Below are positions 19,868-26,107 of a stretch of 64,000 nt of DNA, piece after piece. Position numbers and translations under genes: made by a program. This DNA is from an uncultured Acetatifactor sp. Lineage in GTDB: Bacteria; Bacillota; Clostridia; Lachnospirales; Lachnospiraceae. How positions within the stretch are numbered: position 1 is the first letter of the stretch; every line of letters begins with the position of its first letter. A model generated the notes under the pieces. That model was not told the DNA's origin. It was given only the letters and a program-made list of their open reading frames with translations, and ran no database searches. Location of the stretch: positions 1 to 64,000 of the forward strand of contig CANQEV010000007.1 in the NCBI GenBank assembly GCA_947595925.1, given 5' to 3'.

Positions 19868-20488
19868 ATGAACGAAAAATTCTTTTCTCTGCCGCAAGAA
19901 AAGCAGCAGACGATCCTCAACGCGGGGTACCGCGTATTTTCTCAAAATTCCTATAAAAACAGTCCCATGAGCGAGATCGCGGCGGAAGCGGGCATCAGCA
20001 AATCGCTGCTTTTTCACTACTTTCGGAACAAGAAGGAGCTTTACCTCTTTCTTTGGGACAAATGCGCCGAGCTGACCATAGCGGTTTTGACGCAGTATGG
20101 ATGCTATGAGCAGGAGGATTTATTTGAGAGCATGGAGCGGGGGATGCGGGCAAAAATGGAAATAATCCGCCAGTATCCCGACATGGCAAATTTTACGATC
20201 AAGGCATTTTATGAAAAAGACGAGGAGATCTGCGCCGCCATTCAGGAGAGCTATCACCGATATTTTAACCTGAAAGCGGACAGGACGCGACTGAATCTGA
20301 ATCCGGCGCAGTTTATCCCGGGCCTGGACATCGCGCAGATGTACCAGGAAATGTACTGGGCGTCGGAAGGCTACCTCTGGGAGATGGTACAGCGCGGAAA
20401 TGTGGATGTAAAGAAGATGGAGCGGGACTTTACCGGGCTCATAGAGTTTTGGAAAAGTATCTATCTGAGAAAGGGGGAAACTTCATGA
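19868..20488 (+). CDS. TetR-family regulator
   Basis: N-terminal HTH: IAAEAGISKSLLFHYFRNKKELYLFLWDK. Confidence 0.85.
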   Translation: MNEKFFSLPQEKQQTILNAGYRVFSQNSYKNSPMSEIAAEAGISKSLLFHYFRNKKELYLFLWDKCAELTIAVLTQYGCYEQEDLFESMERGMRAKMEIIRQYPDMANFTIKAFYEKDEEICAAIQESYHRYFNLKADRTRLNLNPAQFIPGLDIAQMYQEMYWASEGYLWEMVQRGNVDVKKMERDFTGLIEFWKSIYLRKGETS

Positions 20489-21381
20489 ACGCCGTTGATA
20501 TCGATGACCTGACAAAATATTACGGTAAAACCCGGGGCATCGAACAGATCGATCTGACTGTCCGGAAGGGAGATTTCTTTGGTTTTATCGGTCCCAACGG
20601 CGCGGGCAAGTCCACCACGATCCGCACACTGTTAGGACTGATCAGGCAAAGCGGAGGCAGGGCCCAGATCTTCGGGCTGGATACGGTAAAGGAGCGGGAG
20701 AAGATCCTGGCCCGGGTGGGGTACCTGCCCTCGGAGGTTTCTTTTTATCCCGGTATGCGCGTGAGGGATGTCTTGAAACTGTCCGCCGATCTGCACAGGC
20801 GCGACTGCAGGGAAATGGGCGGGCGGTTATGTGAGCGGCTGCAGCTGGACCCGACGCGAAAGGTGGAAGATCTTTCCTTTGGAAACCGCAAGAAAACCGC
20901 CATTGTCTGCGCCCTGCAGCAGGAACCGGAACTGCTCATTTTAGATGAACCCACAAGCGGACTTGATCCGCTGATGCAGAGAGAGTTCTTTCAGATCCTG
21001 GAGGAGAGGAACAAAGAGGGGACAACCGTCTTTTTGTCAAGCCATATCCTGTCAGAGATCCAGAATCACTGTACCAAAGCTGCCATAATTAAAGAGGGGA
21101 AGATCATCACCGAGGGCAGCGTGGCAGAGCTCCTGGGAACGGGGACAAAACGGGTCAGCATCCGCGGATCCGTTGACTGCGGTTCTTTGACCGGCGTGAA
21201 GGACTTGCACTGTACGAAGGAAGGCGTGGATTTTCTGTATAGCGGCGATATGAACGCGCTGATGCGGATGGCTTCCAGGGGGGACATTCAGGACATCACC
21301 GTCACGGAGCCGGACCTGGAGGAGGTTTTTCTTCACTATTACGAGAGAGGGGGAGCGGAATATGACCATTCTGAAACATGA
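20485..21381 (+). CDS. ABC transporter ATP-binding protein
   Basis: GPNGAGKST, LSFGNRKKTAIVCAL, LLILDEPTSGLDP; ATG at 20485. Confidence 0.9.
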   Translation: MNAVDIDDLTKYYGKTRGIEQIDLTVRKGDFFGFIGPNGAGKSTTIRTLLGLIRQSGGRAQIFGLDTVKEREKILARVGYLPSEVSFYPGMRVRDVLKLSADLHRRDCREMGGRLCERLQLDPTRKVEDLSFGNRKKTAIVCALQQEPELLILDEPTSGLDPLMQREFFQILEERNKEGTTVFLSSHILSEIQNHCTKAAIIKEGKIITEGSVAELLGTGTKRVSIRGSVDCGSLTGVKDLHCTKEGVDFLYSGDMNALMRMASRGDIQDITVTEPDLEEVFLHYYERGGAEYDHSET

Positions 21382-22147
21382 ACTGCGGCAGGGAAAAATC
21401 ACTTTCCTGATCTGGACGGCAGCGATCGCGCTGCTGCTCATGATCTGTGTCCTGATATTCCCTGAGATGCGGGGAGAGATGGATGCAGTGGGGGAAATGT
21501 TTTCCTCCATGGGCAGCTTTACGGCCGCTTTTGGTATGGACCGGCTGAATTTTGGAACGCTGATCGGTTTTTATGCCGTTGAGTGCGGCAATATCCTCGG
21601 ACTTGGCGGCGCATTTTTTGCCTCGCTGGCCGGCGTCTCCCTTCTGTCAAAAGAGGAAAAAGATAAGACTGCGGAGTTTCTTTTGACCCATCCTGTTTCC
21701 AGAGTCCGCGTCGTCACGGAAAAACTTGCGGCACTGCTGCTGCAGATCACAGCGATGAATCTGCTGATCCTCGCGATTTCCCTGTTGTCGATGCATCTGA
21801 TCGGAGAGGACATTCCCTGGAAAGAGGTCCTGCTGATGCACGGAGCCTATTTTCTGCTCCAGCTTGAATTGGCATGCGTCTGCTTTGGGGTGTCTGCGTT
21901 CCTGCGCCGCGGCAGCGCCGGTATCGGCATGGGGCTGGCGGCAATGATGTACTTCCTGAATCTGATCGCCAATATGACGGACCATGCGAAATTTTTGAAG
22001 GTCGTCACCCCGTTTGGATATTGTGAGGGCGCGGATATCCTGGCTGATGGGAGGCTGAATACGGGATATGCAGCGGTCGGGATACTGTTCGCCTGCATTG
22101 GCGCTGCGGCGGCATATTGGAAATATACCGGAAAGGATATCCATTGA
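21362..22147 (+). CDS. ABC-2 type permease
   Basis: Multi-TM protein directly downstream of and overlapping the ATPase gene. Confidence 0.85.
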   Translation: MTILKHELRQGKITFLIWTAAIALLLMICVLIFPEMRGEMDAVGEMFSSMGSFTAAFGMDRLNFGTLIGFYAVECGNILGLGGAFFASLAGVSLLSKEEKDKTAEFLLTHPVSRVRVVTEKLAALLLQITAMNLLILAISLLSMHLIGEDIPWKEVLLMHGAYFLLQLELACVCFGVSAFLRRGSAGIGMGLAAMMYFLNLIANMTDHAKFLKVVTPFGYCEGADILADGRLNTGYAAVGILFACIGAAAAYWKYTGKDIH

Positions 22148-22218
22148 TCGATTTCCTGCGATACATTTCAAACTGCGGAAACGCAAGAAGAACTGCGAAA
22201 ACGCAAGGAAAGTTAGAC

Positions 22219-22247
22219 TTGACAGTTTTTTGCCCCCATGCTATCAT
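22219..22247 (+). promoter_or_regulatory. Promoter of the PF09818 leader
   Basis: TTGACA (22219-22224), 17-bp spacer, TATCAT (22242-22247). Confidence 0.65.
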
Positions 22248-22324
22248 GAACATGTTGTTGGATACAGTTGAAACTGTTATGACGCAATGCTCGGGTTCAC
22301 ACATTTCAGAAGGAGGTGGTTAAG

Positions 22325-22384
22325 ATGACAACATTATACGCATGCCTGTCAGATGTCAAATTAACTGCCGTGATTCAGAAGTAA
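22325..22384 (+). CDS. Putative 19-aa leader peptide MTTLYACLSDVKLTAVIQK
   Basis: ATG preceded by AGAAGGAGGTGG; 60-nt ORF between promoter and terminator hairpin. Confidence 0.5.
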   Translation: MTTLYACLSDVKLTAVIQK

Positions 22385-22419
22385 AGGTTTTCGTATTCCC
22401 ACTTTGCCGTAGTTTTTGC

Positions 22420-22449
22420 AGCACATCTGATGAGGATGTGCTTTTATTA
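22420..22449 (+). terminator. Putative attenuator terminator
   Basis: AGCACATC (22420-22427) / GATGTGCT (22435-22442), then TTTTATT; lies before the 22501 start codon. Confidence 0.55.
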
Positions 22450-22500
22450 TGCCCTGAAGCATGGTGCATAACGGAAACAATGCGTAAAGAGAGGAAAACG

Positions 22501-24249
22501 ATGCAGCAATTTAAAAGTATTTTACTGGGGTTACATGGTGAGAACAAAGGGATGCTGCGGAAAATCTATGTGGATAAACATGTCCATATAGAAAATTGCA
22601 GCAGCAGTGAGCAGCCCATTGAGGACGAAAGAATTTTTTCGTATCATGATCTGTCATTTCGGTTCGTGGGGACGGGCATGCGGCAGCCGGAGCGCATGAA
22701 TCTTTATATTCTGATACCGCAGAAGGTGTTGGGAATAGGAGATATTCCTTATTCTGTGCCCTGTGAGGATTATCTGCTGCGGATATTATCTCCGCAGATT
22801 GCCCGGCTGTCAAAGATCCTGGAAAATGATCGGAAGGATTCCCGTGAGAAGGCGAAATTTGAGAGCCAGACGGTCAATCAACGGATATTGCGGAGAAGCG
22901 GTCTTGTCTATGATGAAAACAGGCAGGTGTTTACGCTGCGCATCCTGTTCAGAATGCCGCTCATCAACGGAACGACCATAAATGCCAAAAGCGGATGGAA
23001 GGCCGTGCGCAGCCTTCTGGAGACGGTGGAACTGGTATTGCGGGATTTTGACAGGGAGGCGTTGAAACGCCATCTGCAAACCTGGCAATATCAGACAGAA
23101 ATACGGAAATGGTTGTCTGAAAATGACAAGATTGCATTCATTGCCAATGAAAGCATCCTGCCGAGACAGGACGGGTCGGATCTGCCTATGGGGAATGCGG
23201 TTCCCTTTGCCTCTCCTTCCGATCTGGAGGCAACGATTCCTTTTTCGGACGGAAGCAGGATCAGCGGAATGGCGCTTTCCCCTGGGGTGACAGTCATAAC
23301 GGGAGGAGGTTATTCGGGGAAAAGCACACTTTTAGATGCGCTGGAAACTGGGATCTATCACCATGTTCCGGGCGATGGCAGAGAGTATGTCCTGTCATGT
23401 TCGGACAGTATGAAGATCTATGCGGAGGACGGCAGGCCCGTCCATGAAATGGATCTGTCGCTCTTTTTCCGGGAACTGTCCCCCGAGTTATCTTTTCGGC
23501 GCTTTTCTACGTCCTGTGCCAGTGGCAGCGTGTCCCAGGCGGCAAATATTCTGGAGGCGATCTATGCCGGGTGCGGTCTTTTGCTGATCGATGAAGATTC
23601 CAGCGCTACGAATTTTATGATTCGTGACGCGCTGATCCGCAGACTGGTGCAAAAGGAGCCGATCATTCCGTTCACGGATCGGGTTCGGGCTATCTATGAA
23701 CAGCTTGGGATTTCCACGATCCTGGTGATAGGTGGGAGCGGTGAATATCTGCAGCATGCGGATCTGTGCCTGTTGATGGAGGATTACCGCATTCAAAATG
23801 TGACCGGACTGGCAGGAGAGCTGGTGGAAGTTACGCGGGGACGGGAACCCGGTTTCCAGGAGCCATTATCTCTGATCAATCACCGTTATTTCAAGCGGCC
23901 TGAATCCGCATTGCCTTTTTACATCGGTCAGAGCGTGTCTGTGGACAAGGCACATTATATTCAGATTGACGGTTACACCAGTGATGTAAGCCGGCTGACA
24001 GCTCTCGTTTCGGAGGAACAGTTTCAAACGGCGGCATACTTGTTAGAGTGCTGGATGAACAATTGCACGGAGGATGACAGCGAGTGTCTCCGGGCAGCGT
24101 CAGAGTTGACGGAACTTTTATTTCAGCCGGAGATTGCGGAAGAAATACAGGCGGACAACTATGCGTTTCCATTGTGGCTGGAAGAAATCCGTCCGATGGA
24201 TCTGCTTGCCGCTCTGTTCCGAATGAGGGGAGTGACCATTTTCGGCTGA
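22501..24249 (+). CDS. ABC-class predicted ATPase (COG3044 / PF09818), copy 1
   Basis: GVTVITGGGYSGKSTLLDALETGIYHHVPGDGREYV, LLLIDEDSSATNFMIRDALI, PFTDRVRAIYEQLGISTILVIGGSGEYL; preferred start ATG 22501. Confidence 0.85.
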   Translation: MQQFKSILLGLHGENKGMLRKIYVDKHVHIENCSSSEQPIEDERIFSYHDLSFRFVGTGMRQPERMNLYILIPQKVLGIGDIPYSVPCEDYLLRILSPQIARLSKILENDRKDSREKAKFESQTVNQRILRRSGLVYDENRQVFTLRILFRMPLINGTTINAKSGWKAVRSLLETVELVLRDFDREALKRHLQTWQYQTEIRKWLSENDKIAFIANESILPRQDGSDLPMGNAVPFASPSDLEATIPFSDGSRISGMALSPGVTVITGGGYSGKSTLLDALETGIYHHVPGDGREYVLSCSDSMKIYAEDGRPVHEMDLSLFFRELSPELSFRRFSTSCASGSVSQAANILEAIYAGCGLLLIDEDSSATNFMIRDALIRRLVQKEPIIPFTDRVRAIYEQLGISTILVIGGSGEYLQHADLCLLMEDYRIQNVTGLAGELVEVTRGREPGFQEPLSLINHRYFKRPESALPFYIGQSVSVDKAHYIQIDGYTSDVSRLTALVSEEQFQTAAYLLECWMNNCTEDDSECLRAASELTELLFQPEIAEEIQADNYAFPLWLEEIRPMDLLAALFRMRGVTIFG

Positions 24250-24397: not shown

Positions 24398-26107
24398 ATG
24401 ATTAAATACAGGGAATTGAAGCAAGCCATAACCCATGATGGACAGAGATATTTGAACGGAAAGCCGGTGTCTTTTTTGCTTTCCTATTGGAATGAAGAGT
24501 ATTCCTACTCTGAAAATGTTTCTTTTAAGATCAAACCGATTACTTTTAAAGTGCCTACGAATGTGGTCATGTATATTGCATTTAACGCGGAACCGTTTGG
24601 CTTTGATAAGGATGATATCTGCGAAAATAAGGCTTTTTATGAAGACATTCTTTTGAGGCATTTTTATCCTGTAATGAGTGCATTAAATGAAGAATTTTCC
24701 GCCGTTAATAAACTGGACAGACTATATACCAAAATTGCGTGTGAAAAGCCTGATCACAGGATCATTCGCAGAAGTGGACTTCTCTATAAACAAAATGAAA
24801 ATATGTTTGTGCTTAAATTGTTCGTATTATTTCCTTCCGGATCCGGTGTATCCATTATGGGAAACAGAATTGCAAAGATGCTCGGAGCCATACTGAAGAG
24901 CATCGAAGACAGTTATTTTCTAATAGATAAAGATGTGATCAGAGAACGCCTGATTGTATACAAGAAACAAAAGGCAATCAGGGAGTATTGTAGAGAAAAT
25001 GATTATAAGGCATTTGTCGCCAACGGCAGTATTCTTCCCAGAAATGGGGATTCCCAGGAGCCGCTGGAAAGCGCCATTCCATTTCAAAGCCCTGCTTCTC
25101 TGCAAAGAGCGATACGGATGCCCGACGGTACAGAGATGGTCGGCATGGTGATCCCGAGGGGGATCACGGTTATCACCGGAGCGGGTTTTTCGGGAAAGAC
25201 GACTTTGCTTGAGGCCGTGCAATGTGGAATTTACAATTATATTCCGGGAGATGGAAGGGAATTCATCATCGCGGACGGAAGTCTTATGACTACAAATGCC
25301 GAGGACGGAAGGTTTGTCGGGAGAGAGGATATTTCACTTTTTTTCAAAAGTATTCCTTTTCAGGATGTACATCATTTTTCCACCAGCCATGCGAGTGGGA
25401 GCGTGTCGCAGGCCGCGAATGTCTGTGAAGCCATCTATGCAGGAAGTCATTTGCTGACGATCGATGAGGACAAGAGTGCGACAAACTTCATGATACGTGA
25501 TGAGCTTATGAGGCGGATTGTGAAGAATGAGATCATTATACCGTTTACGGATCGCATTCAGGCTATTTGCCGCCAAAAAGATGTTTCTGTCATTCTTGTC
25601 ATTGGCGGATCAAGCGAATACCTGAAAATTGCAGATACCGTCATCCTGATGGATGAGTATGTACCTCAGGACATCAGCGGGGAAATAAATAACACGATTG
25701 AAAAAGTAACGATACAGGATGAAATTTTTGTTGCTGATGAGGAAAAGAGAATTGTCCATCAGGGAGATTCTATGGAGGCCCTGTTTATGAAAACCGTCTG
25801 CACGGAAGACAGCAAAAAAGCGGTATGCGGTAAGTATGTTTCAGATCTTACCATGGTCCCGTCCGTTGAAACAAGTGAGCAGTTACAGACAGTCGCATGT
25901 GCCATGAGAAAACTTTTGTCAAATATGGAAAATGAATCGGAAGATTTGGCCGATTTTGCAGATCGTTTTCAACAACAGCTATTTGAAATTCTCTCTGATG
26001 AAATGCAGCATACGGAAACTGCATATCGTGAATGGTGGTTGGATGAAGTCAGAAAGGAGGACCTCTTGATGGGACTTTTGCGAATGAGGGGTATTCGTTT
26101 TGACTAA
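24398..26107 (+). CDS. ABC-class predicted ATPase (COG3044 / PF09818), copy 2
   Basis: GITVITGAGFSGKTTLLEAVQCGIYNYIPGDGREFI, LLTIDEDKSATNFMIRDELM, PFTDRIQAICRQKDVSVILVIGGSSEYL. Confidence 0.85.
   Translation: MIKYRELKQAITHDGQRYLNGKPVSFLLSYWNEEYSYSENVSFKIKPITFKVPTNVVMYIAFNAEPFGFDKDDICENKAFYEDILLRHFYPVMSALNEEFSAVNKLDRLYTKIACEKPDHRIIRRSGLLYKQNENMFVLKLFVLFPSGSGVSIMGNRIAKMLGAILKSIEDSYFLIDKDVIRERLIVYKKQKAIREYCRENDYKAFVANGSILPRNGDSQEPLESAIPFQSPASLQRAIRMPDGTEMVGMVIPRGITVITGAGFSGKTTLLEAVQCGIYNYIPGDGREFIIADGSLMTTNAEDGRFVGREDISLFFKSIPFQDVHHFSTSHASGSVSQAANVCEAIYAGSHLLTIDEDKSATNFMIRDELMRRIVKNEIIIPFTDRIQAICRQKDVSVILVIGGSSEYLKIADTVILMDEYVPQDISGEINNTIEKVTIQDEIFVADEEKRIVHQGDSMEALFMKTVCTEDSKKAVCGKYVSDLTMVPSVETSEQLQTVACAMRKLLSNMENESEDLADFADRFQQQLFEILSDEMQHTETAYREWWLDEVRKEDLLMGLLRMRGIRFD

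Follow-up and report, generated by a model that had tools for sequence, protein, structure and literature searches.

The region directly upstream of a PF09818 ATPase gene, at 22219–22501 of the window (the whole stretch of DNA analysed, 64,000 nucleotides), is probably an attenuator through which ribosomes control the PF09818 ATPase gene or genes behind it, a reading held here with good confidence. The switch would resemble the vmlR leader, would act in two layers, and would sense ribosomes held at initiation or in early elongation. Its elements are conserved and covary in relatives, and its alternative folds exclude one another in silico. The sequence-only reading had taken the layout as ribosome-mediated attenuation, and this is still the best reading, supported by the conservation and covariation of the leader ORF, the anti-Shine-Dalgarno stem, the antiterminator and the terminator.

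All features lie on the plus strand. A sigma-70-type promoter, TTGACA-N17-TATCAT, lies at 22219–22247, where the sequence-only reading had placed it, with 11 of 12 consensus positions matched and a TG preceding the -10 box; aligned relatives carry a TTGACA/TAT--T pair at the same position. The leader ORF of 19 codons plus TAA that had been noted with its Shine-Dalgarno is present in the ORF listing at 22325–22384 (ATG at 22325, TAA at 22382–22384; peptide MTTLYACLSDVKLTAVIQK), and an ORF with a Shine-Dalgarno is found in 33/33 aligned relatives. The regulated gene starts at 22501, as proposed, and runs to 24249. It encodes a 582-aa protein of PF09818/COG3044, "ATPase of the ABC class" (Pfam E 1.7e-96; 323 bits against a gathering threshold of 23.2). 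The region thus has, between promoter and gene, a short ORF with its ribosome binding site, an intrinsic terminator, an antiterminator overlapping the terminator, and an anti-antiterminator overlapping the ORF, the structural features of a leader-ORF attenuator. The Shine-Dalgarno of the leader ORF is itself inside the switch and forms one arm of the anti-antiterminator. Directly before the leader promoter, 19868–22147 holds genes for a TetR regulator, an ABC ATPase and an ABC-2 permease, a typical efflux-like operon.

The intrinsic terminator consists of a stem at 22420–22442 and a T-rich tail ending at 22449, which bears out the hairpin proposed before the ATPase start and is supported by folding and covariation. 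Its 5' arm and loop form segment E and its 3' arm forms segment F. The complementarity between TCAGATGT (22349–22356) and ACATCTGA (22423–22430), reported earlier as overlapping the terminator, is real and is part of a longer antiterminator. When the 5' part is removed, the RNA refolds to a duplex of about 17 bp in which segment C, inside the leader ORF (22340–22356), pairs with 22423–22441 (-20.9 kcal/mol) and consumes nearly the whole terminator hairpin. In the MFE fold of the leader, segment A, the leader-ORF Shine-Dalgarno GGUGGUUAA (22315–22323), pairs with segment D, the anti-Shine-Dalgarno UUAACUGCC (22361–22369), in a 9-bp stem that stands alongside the terminator. The sequence-only reading had proposed that TGACA (22326–22330) sequesters the antiterminator by pairing with TGTCA at 22347–22351. 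In the MFE fold TGACA does join and lengthen the sequestering stem, but its partner is TGTCA at 22354–22358, and the stem is longer than had been seen, being formed mainly by the leader Shine-Dalgarno and segment D.

Taken singly, the elements of the window are only mildly beyond chance, and the whole leader fold is not unusually stable. The folding z-score was -0.07 for 22254–22450 and -1.39 for 22254–22500, and the extended antiterminator duplex was matched by 23–32 of 2000 shuffles. Comparative evidence is what makes the switch solid. In an alignment of 33 leaders (A2), the A:D stem was 89.4% paired, with slid controls at or below 55%, and 7 of its 10 pairs carried compensatory changes; double-change cells numbered 40, compared with 11.6 in shuffles (0/500 shuffles). 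The core C:E stem was 76.8% paired (slid controls ≤38%), with 26 double-change cells against 8.7 (0/500 shuffles). The terminator was 98.5% paired across the 33 leaders, with four compensated pairs and slid controls at or below 59%. Conservation of the leader ORF and covariation of these stems ahead of PF09818 genes had been suggested as a check on the attenuator, and both are found. Tests on single leaders differed between the two stems: the A:D duplex was beyond shuffles at p<0.05 in 31/43 leaders, and the C:E duplex was clear in 10/43, its signal needing the alignment. The weak single-sequence statistics are what could be said for an unregulated locus, in which the terminator would simply end the upstream ABC-2 transporter operon and the complementarity would be due to chance. 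The terminator, however, has a conserved promoter and ORF of its own before it, covariation is seen in three to six stems, and leaders occur in two deep PF09818 branches. The covariation already contradicts this explanation, which has next to no chance of being right.

The best match to the window genome is an Acetatifactor MAG (Lachnospiraceae, 95%). The distribution of the leader was studied in PF09818 relatives gathered from the genus of the window genome and from GTDB representatives. The same leader precedes relatives down to about 40% identity, and the shared layout comprises a Shine-Dalgarno of the GAGGTGATCAAC type, an ORF of 16–31 codons, an anti-Shine-Dalgarno, and a terminator of the form GCGCATCCG..GGATGCGC. 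Among 98 PF09818 proteins in loci, a sample that leans to leader-bearing proteins, from which the query alignment A1 was built, 54 have the leader, 37 have none and 7 cannot be told. The tree requires at least 11 leader changes, compared with about 32 when shuffled. On these sequence comparisons the switch is conserved ahead of PF09818 genes in many Clostridia of the gut and rumen; no viral-contig relative was found. PF09818 genes are paired in tandem at 17 of 81 loci, and at three of these (L082–L084) it is the first member of the pair that has the leader before it. In the window, a second PF09818 gene (24398–26107; Pfam E 7.4e-96) directly follows the first with no leader of its own and probably shares its transcript. 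The clade of this second gene, 11 proteins that are mostly members of tandem pairs, lacks an own leader throughout. Two more PF09818 paralogues are encoded in the same genome (G000:C16:47537-48853 and G000:C23:74-850), and no leader was reported by the covariance model at either. In one relative (L036/L127, G100:C23:46524-46892) the leader is 91% conserved, the ATPase behind it has decayed to a fragment, and a different PF09818 gene is next.

The better-preserved clade of 17 non-redundant leaders, here called the core clade, shows three further supported stems, which brings the covarying stems to six. The B:G stem joins ORF codons to a segment past the terminator; it is 84% paired, with 28 double-change cells against 12.3 (0/1000 shuffles). 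The G:H stem joins the post-terminator segment to the ATPase Shine-Dalgarno and is 90% paired, but is the weaker of these, its pairing being matched by 28 and its double changes by 12 of 1000 shuffles. The Z:Z' stem joins the 5' end of the RNA to a segment just before the ATPase Shine-Dalgarno; it is 94% paired (slid controls ≤49%), with double changes at one pair only. The six stems make up two mutually exclusive nested folds, A:D + E:F + G:H (OFF) and Z:Z' + B:G + C:E (ON). The mutual exclusion of antiterminator and terminator proposed from the window is borne out by folding in silico and by covariation. In the window, the 5' end of the leader RNA (22262–22296) forms in the ON fold a long-range duplex with the post-terminator segment (22452–22486) of -28.2 kcal/mol, matched by 7/2000 shuffles; in the OFF fold the post-terminator segment pairs with its surroundings. 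From its position, this outer pairing would correspond to the Z:Z' element of the core clade. The Shine-Dalgarno region of the ATPase gene (22488–22497) is mostly paired in the OFF fold and free in the ON fold, with a computed probability of being unpaired of 0.32 and, when the antiterminator is enforced, 0.97. Sequestration of the gene's Shine-Dalgarno in the OFF state and its release in the ON state, as in leaders of the vmlR type, are thus found in the core clade by G:H and B:G covariation and in the window by folding. A second, translational layer is clear for the core clade; for the window it is suggested by folding and one shuffle test.

The proposed mechanism is as follows. By default, the leader-ORF Shine-Dalgarno would pair with the late ORF segment (A:D), hiding segment C; with C hidden, the terminator would form and transcription would end near 22449, and any transcripts reading through in the OFF state would have the ATPase Shine-Dalgarno largely paired. 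A ribosome halted at the start codon or at one of the earliest codons would block A:D and leave C uncovered. Free C would then pair with the 5' part of the emerging terminator, RNA polymerase would read through, and the long-range ON fold would leave the ATPase Shine-Dalgarno free. That the leader is translated and that stalling is the trigger are what we infer from this anatomy, as is the nature of the drugs that would act. Anything that holds ribosomes at initiation or in early elongation would be expected to serve, with no particular arrest peptide; candidates are inhibitors of the pleuromutilin, lincosamide and tetracycline types, and general translation stress.

Simulations in which a ribosome footprint, fixed and simplified, was moved along the ORF during folding of 36 leaders are consistent with this mechanism. 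Mean antiterminator pairing in the nascent transcript was 0.07 with no ribosome, and 0.41, 0.39, 0.30, 0.24 and 0.14 with the P site on codons 1 to 5, respectively; it fell to 0.02–0.04 at codons 6–8. The modelled ribosome would therefore favour antitermination mainly at codons 1–4. For a window transcript ending at the terminator, the terminator probability was 0.98 with no ribosome, and a start-codon ribosome gave the antiterminator a probability of about 0.7 at equilibrium. In a longer window RNA running into the ATPase gene, the terminator was favoured at equilibrium even with a start-codon ribosome. Once the complete terminator is present, it is favoured at equilibrium in most relatives despite a stalled ribosome (mean 0.88). 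Because the finished terminator beats the antiterminator at equilibrium, the decision in most relatives would be kinetic. In the core clade segment B often begins at ORF+15 to +17, a start that fits the edge of an initiating ribosome, the toeprint of which has been reported at +16 (PMC9226507) and at +16 to +18 (PMC12121999).

The position of the leader stop codon may point to a role for a terminating ribosome. The stop lies a median of 12 nt past segment D (IQR 12–15.75; 36 leaders), and in 92% of these leaders it falls 6–20 nt past D, compared with 14% in the other (control) frames; the spacing is retained despite an altered frame in three leaders (L094, L098 and L115). This near-constant placement is the main argument for the same attenuator having its effective ribosome position at the stop codon, where slow termination or recycling would cover D and free A, B and C, so that the whole ON fold forms. 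Two leaders (L101 and L046) argue in the same direction, as segment B is inside the footprint of a start-codon ribosome in both, and only a late ribosome would leave it free. The simulated antiterminator pairing near the stop was, however, 0.12–0.14 compared with 0.41 at the start, and in the window a ribosome near the stop leaves the terminator favoured at equilibrium (0.97). Control from the stop codon is therefore unlikely, and early stalling is the preferred reading.

Neither the sequence nor the reading frame of the leader peptide is conserved across relatives. Since C and D lie in a shifted reading frame in L094, L098 and L115 and their RNA pairing is nevertheless retained, selection acts on the leader RNA and not on the peptide. 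The peptides diverge, the RLR arrest motif is absent from those printed, and no run of codons for a single amino acid was seen in any leader peptide. By sequence, the leader is thus neither an arrest-peptide nor an amino-acid attenuator. The layout does recall the attenuators of the trp type, with a short ORF and exclusive stems, and starvation for a leader residue could in principle stall the ribosome. A classical amino-acid-limitation attenuator nevertheless has a very slim chance given the missing codon runs, the diversity of peptides that can be read in another frame, and a downstream gene that encodes an ATPase and not a biosynthetic enzyme. Conservation of the RNA elements without the peptide would also suit an RNA in which the ORF is unimportant and the stems recognise a ligand, either a protein or a small molecule, as in a riboswitch or in autoregulation by the ATPase, and a distant homologue, MRB1590, is known to bind RNA (PMC4538832). 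The start codon and Shine-Dalgarno are, however, kept in 33/33 aligned leaders, and even where the frame has changed no stop interrupts the ORF until just past D. The leaders showed no conserved aptamer-like loop, and searches of Rfam 15, including T-box and riboswitch families, gave no match at gathering in the window or in eight related loci and none in 22200–22520 at E≤1. Such ligand or protein sensing is quite improbable, and a leader read by ribosomes is preferred.

Searches independent of the downstream gene were done with a covariance model (R1) on genomes sampled at the levels of genus, family, order, class and phylum. When tallied over the result tables with duplicates removed, 27 of 30 matches at E≤1e-6 precede PF09818 genes, many of the hits being from the same species as the training loci; the other three are L132, L183 and L184. 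The L183 match (1501–1655) is a leader-ORF attenuator resembling that of the window, located in other Clostridia before an ABC exporter gene with PF00005. A weaker match, L155 (1501–1661; E 2.4e-5), is a similar attenuator in other Clostridia before an exporter with an ABC membrane domain. L184 (G841:C134:9997-10136) has an SD:anti-SD stem and a terminator-overlapping complement, and the protein encoded downstream combines GNAT acetyltransferase domains in tandem with an additional C-terminal region. The genes behind L183, L155 and L184 are of resistance type, which lends indirect support to translation inhibitors as the signal. The link of the switch to translation stress, offered as an inference by the sequence-only reading, is still one, and it gains indirect support because the model also finds matches ahead of genes for an ABC exporter and for a GNAT acetyltransferase and because the anatomy matches that of vmlR (PMC9226507). 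L132/L150 (G028:C4:99469-99672) is a degenerate palindromic element that is leader-like on both strands, has no plus-strand ORF, and looks like a relic. Matches with E > 1e-4 were mostly unrelated terminators and were rejected.

COG3044/PF09818 proteins are widespread in bacteria, and a structure has been solved. We know of no regulation or role for the bacterial members. No described role was found for them, and, in line with the earlier remark that no such control was known for them, no attenuator for COG3044/PF09818 was found in the literature outside subscription papers. Neither window ATPase has an NCBIfam family, and PADLOC gave a weak match of the second to mad8 (E 0.0024). Solved relatives in the same PF09818 family as the window gene are a bacterial COG3044 protein (5d6a) and the trypanosome MRB1590 (4yix, 4yiy), an ABC-ATPase with an RNA-binding pore that acts in kinetoplastid mitochondrial RNA editing (PMC4538832). 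These observations would suit an ATPase that acts on RNA or ribosomes and is induced when ribosomes stall, and the switch suggests a part for the family in withstanding stress or drugs that block ribosomes. More tentatively, and with the balance somewhat against it, bacterial PF09818 ABC-class ATPases could form a family of translation factors that Clostridia induce in response to drugs or stress, like antibiotic-resistance ABC-F proteins or HflXr in use, under a dedicated two-layer RNA switch that senses initiation-held ribosomes. A conserved switch of the kind found with ribosome-protection genes offers a definite function in translation stress that can be tested for the PF09818 family, and an RNA element with defined stems and predicted mutants is suited to a standard reporter.

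Among known attenuators, the leader of vmlR, an ABC-F resistance factor of Bacillus subtilis, is a close parallel (PMC9226507). The two share a leader ORF inside an anti-antiterminator, an exclusive antiterminator, an intrinsic terminator, a hairpin sequestering the gene's Shine-Dalgarno until the ON fold opens it, and a start-codon ribosome as trigger, which in the window is proposed. Drugs that stall initiation have been reported to induce vmlR (PMC9226507). The vmlR ORF has 3 codons and a single-stranded Shine-Dalgarno (PMC9226507), whereas leaders of the window type have 16–31 codons and use their own Shine-Dalgarno as the anti-antiterminator arm. Further differences from vmlR are the direct pairing of core-clade ORF codons with sequence past the terminator, the closing of the ON fold by the 5' end of the RNA, and the regulated gene, which encodes a PF09818 ATPase instead of an ABC-F; Rfam showed no relation between the two leaders. 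The rli80-hflXr leader of Listeria monocytogenes likewise combines a terminator, an antiterminator, an anti-antiterminator and a short ORF (14 aa), is induced by ribosome drugs and controls a ribosome-splitting factor (PMC6310831). It carries the RLR macrolide-arrest motif (PMC6310831), in contrast to the unconserved peptides of the window type, those printed being free of it. The toiL uORF of Escherichia coli topAI is a multipurpose leader ORF; ribosomes that occupy it, at the start codon among other places, open a ribosome binding site further downstream. It works via translation and Rho (PMC12121999), whereas the window has an intrinsic terminator. The bmrB-bmrCD leader of B. subtilis is alike in its ribosome-mediated transcription attenuation and in that bmrB senses ribosome drugs, but unlike the window it has its terminator within the bmrB ORF (162 bp) and controls an ABC exporter (PMC4191407); the attenuators that precede ABC exporter genes (L155, L183) come closer to bmrCD in use. 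Overall, the switch would group with the bmrCD and hflXr leaders in how it works.
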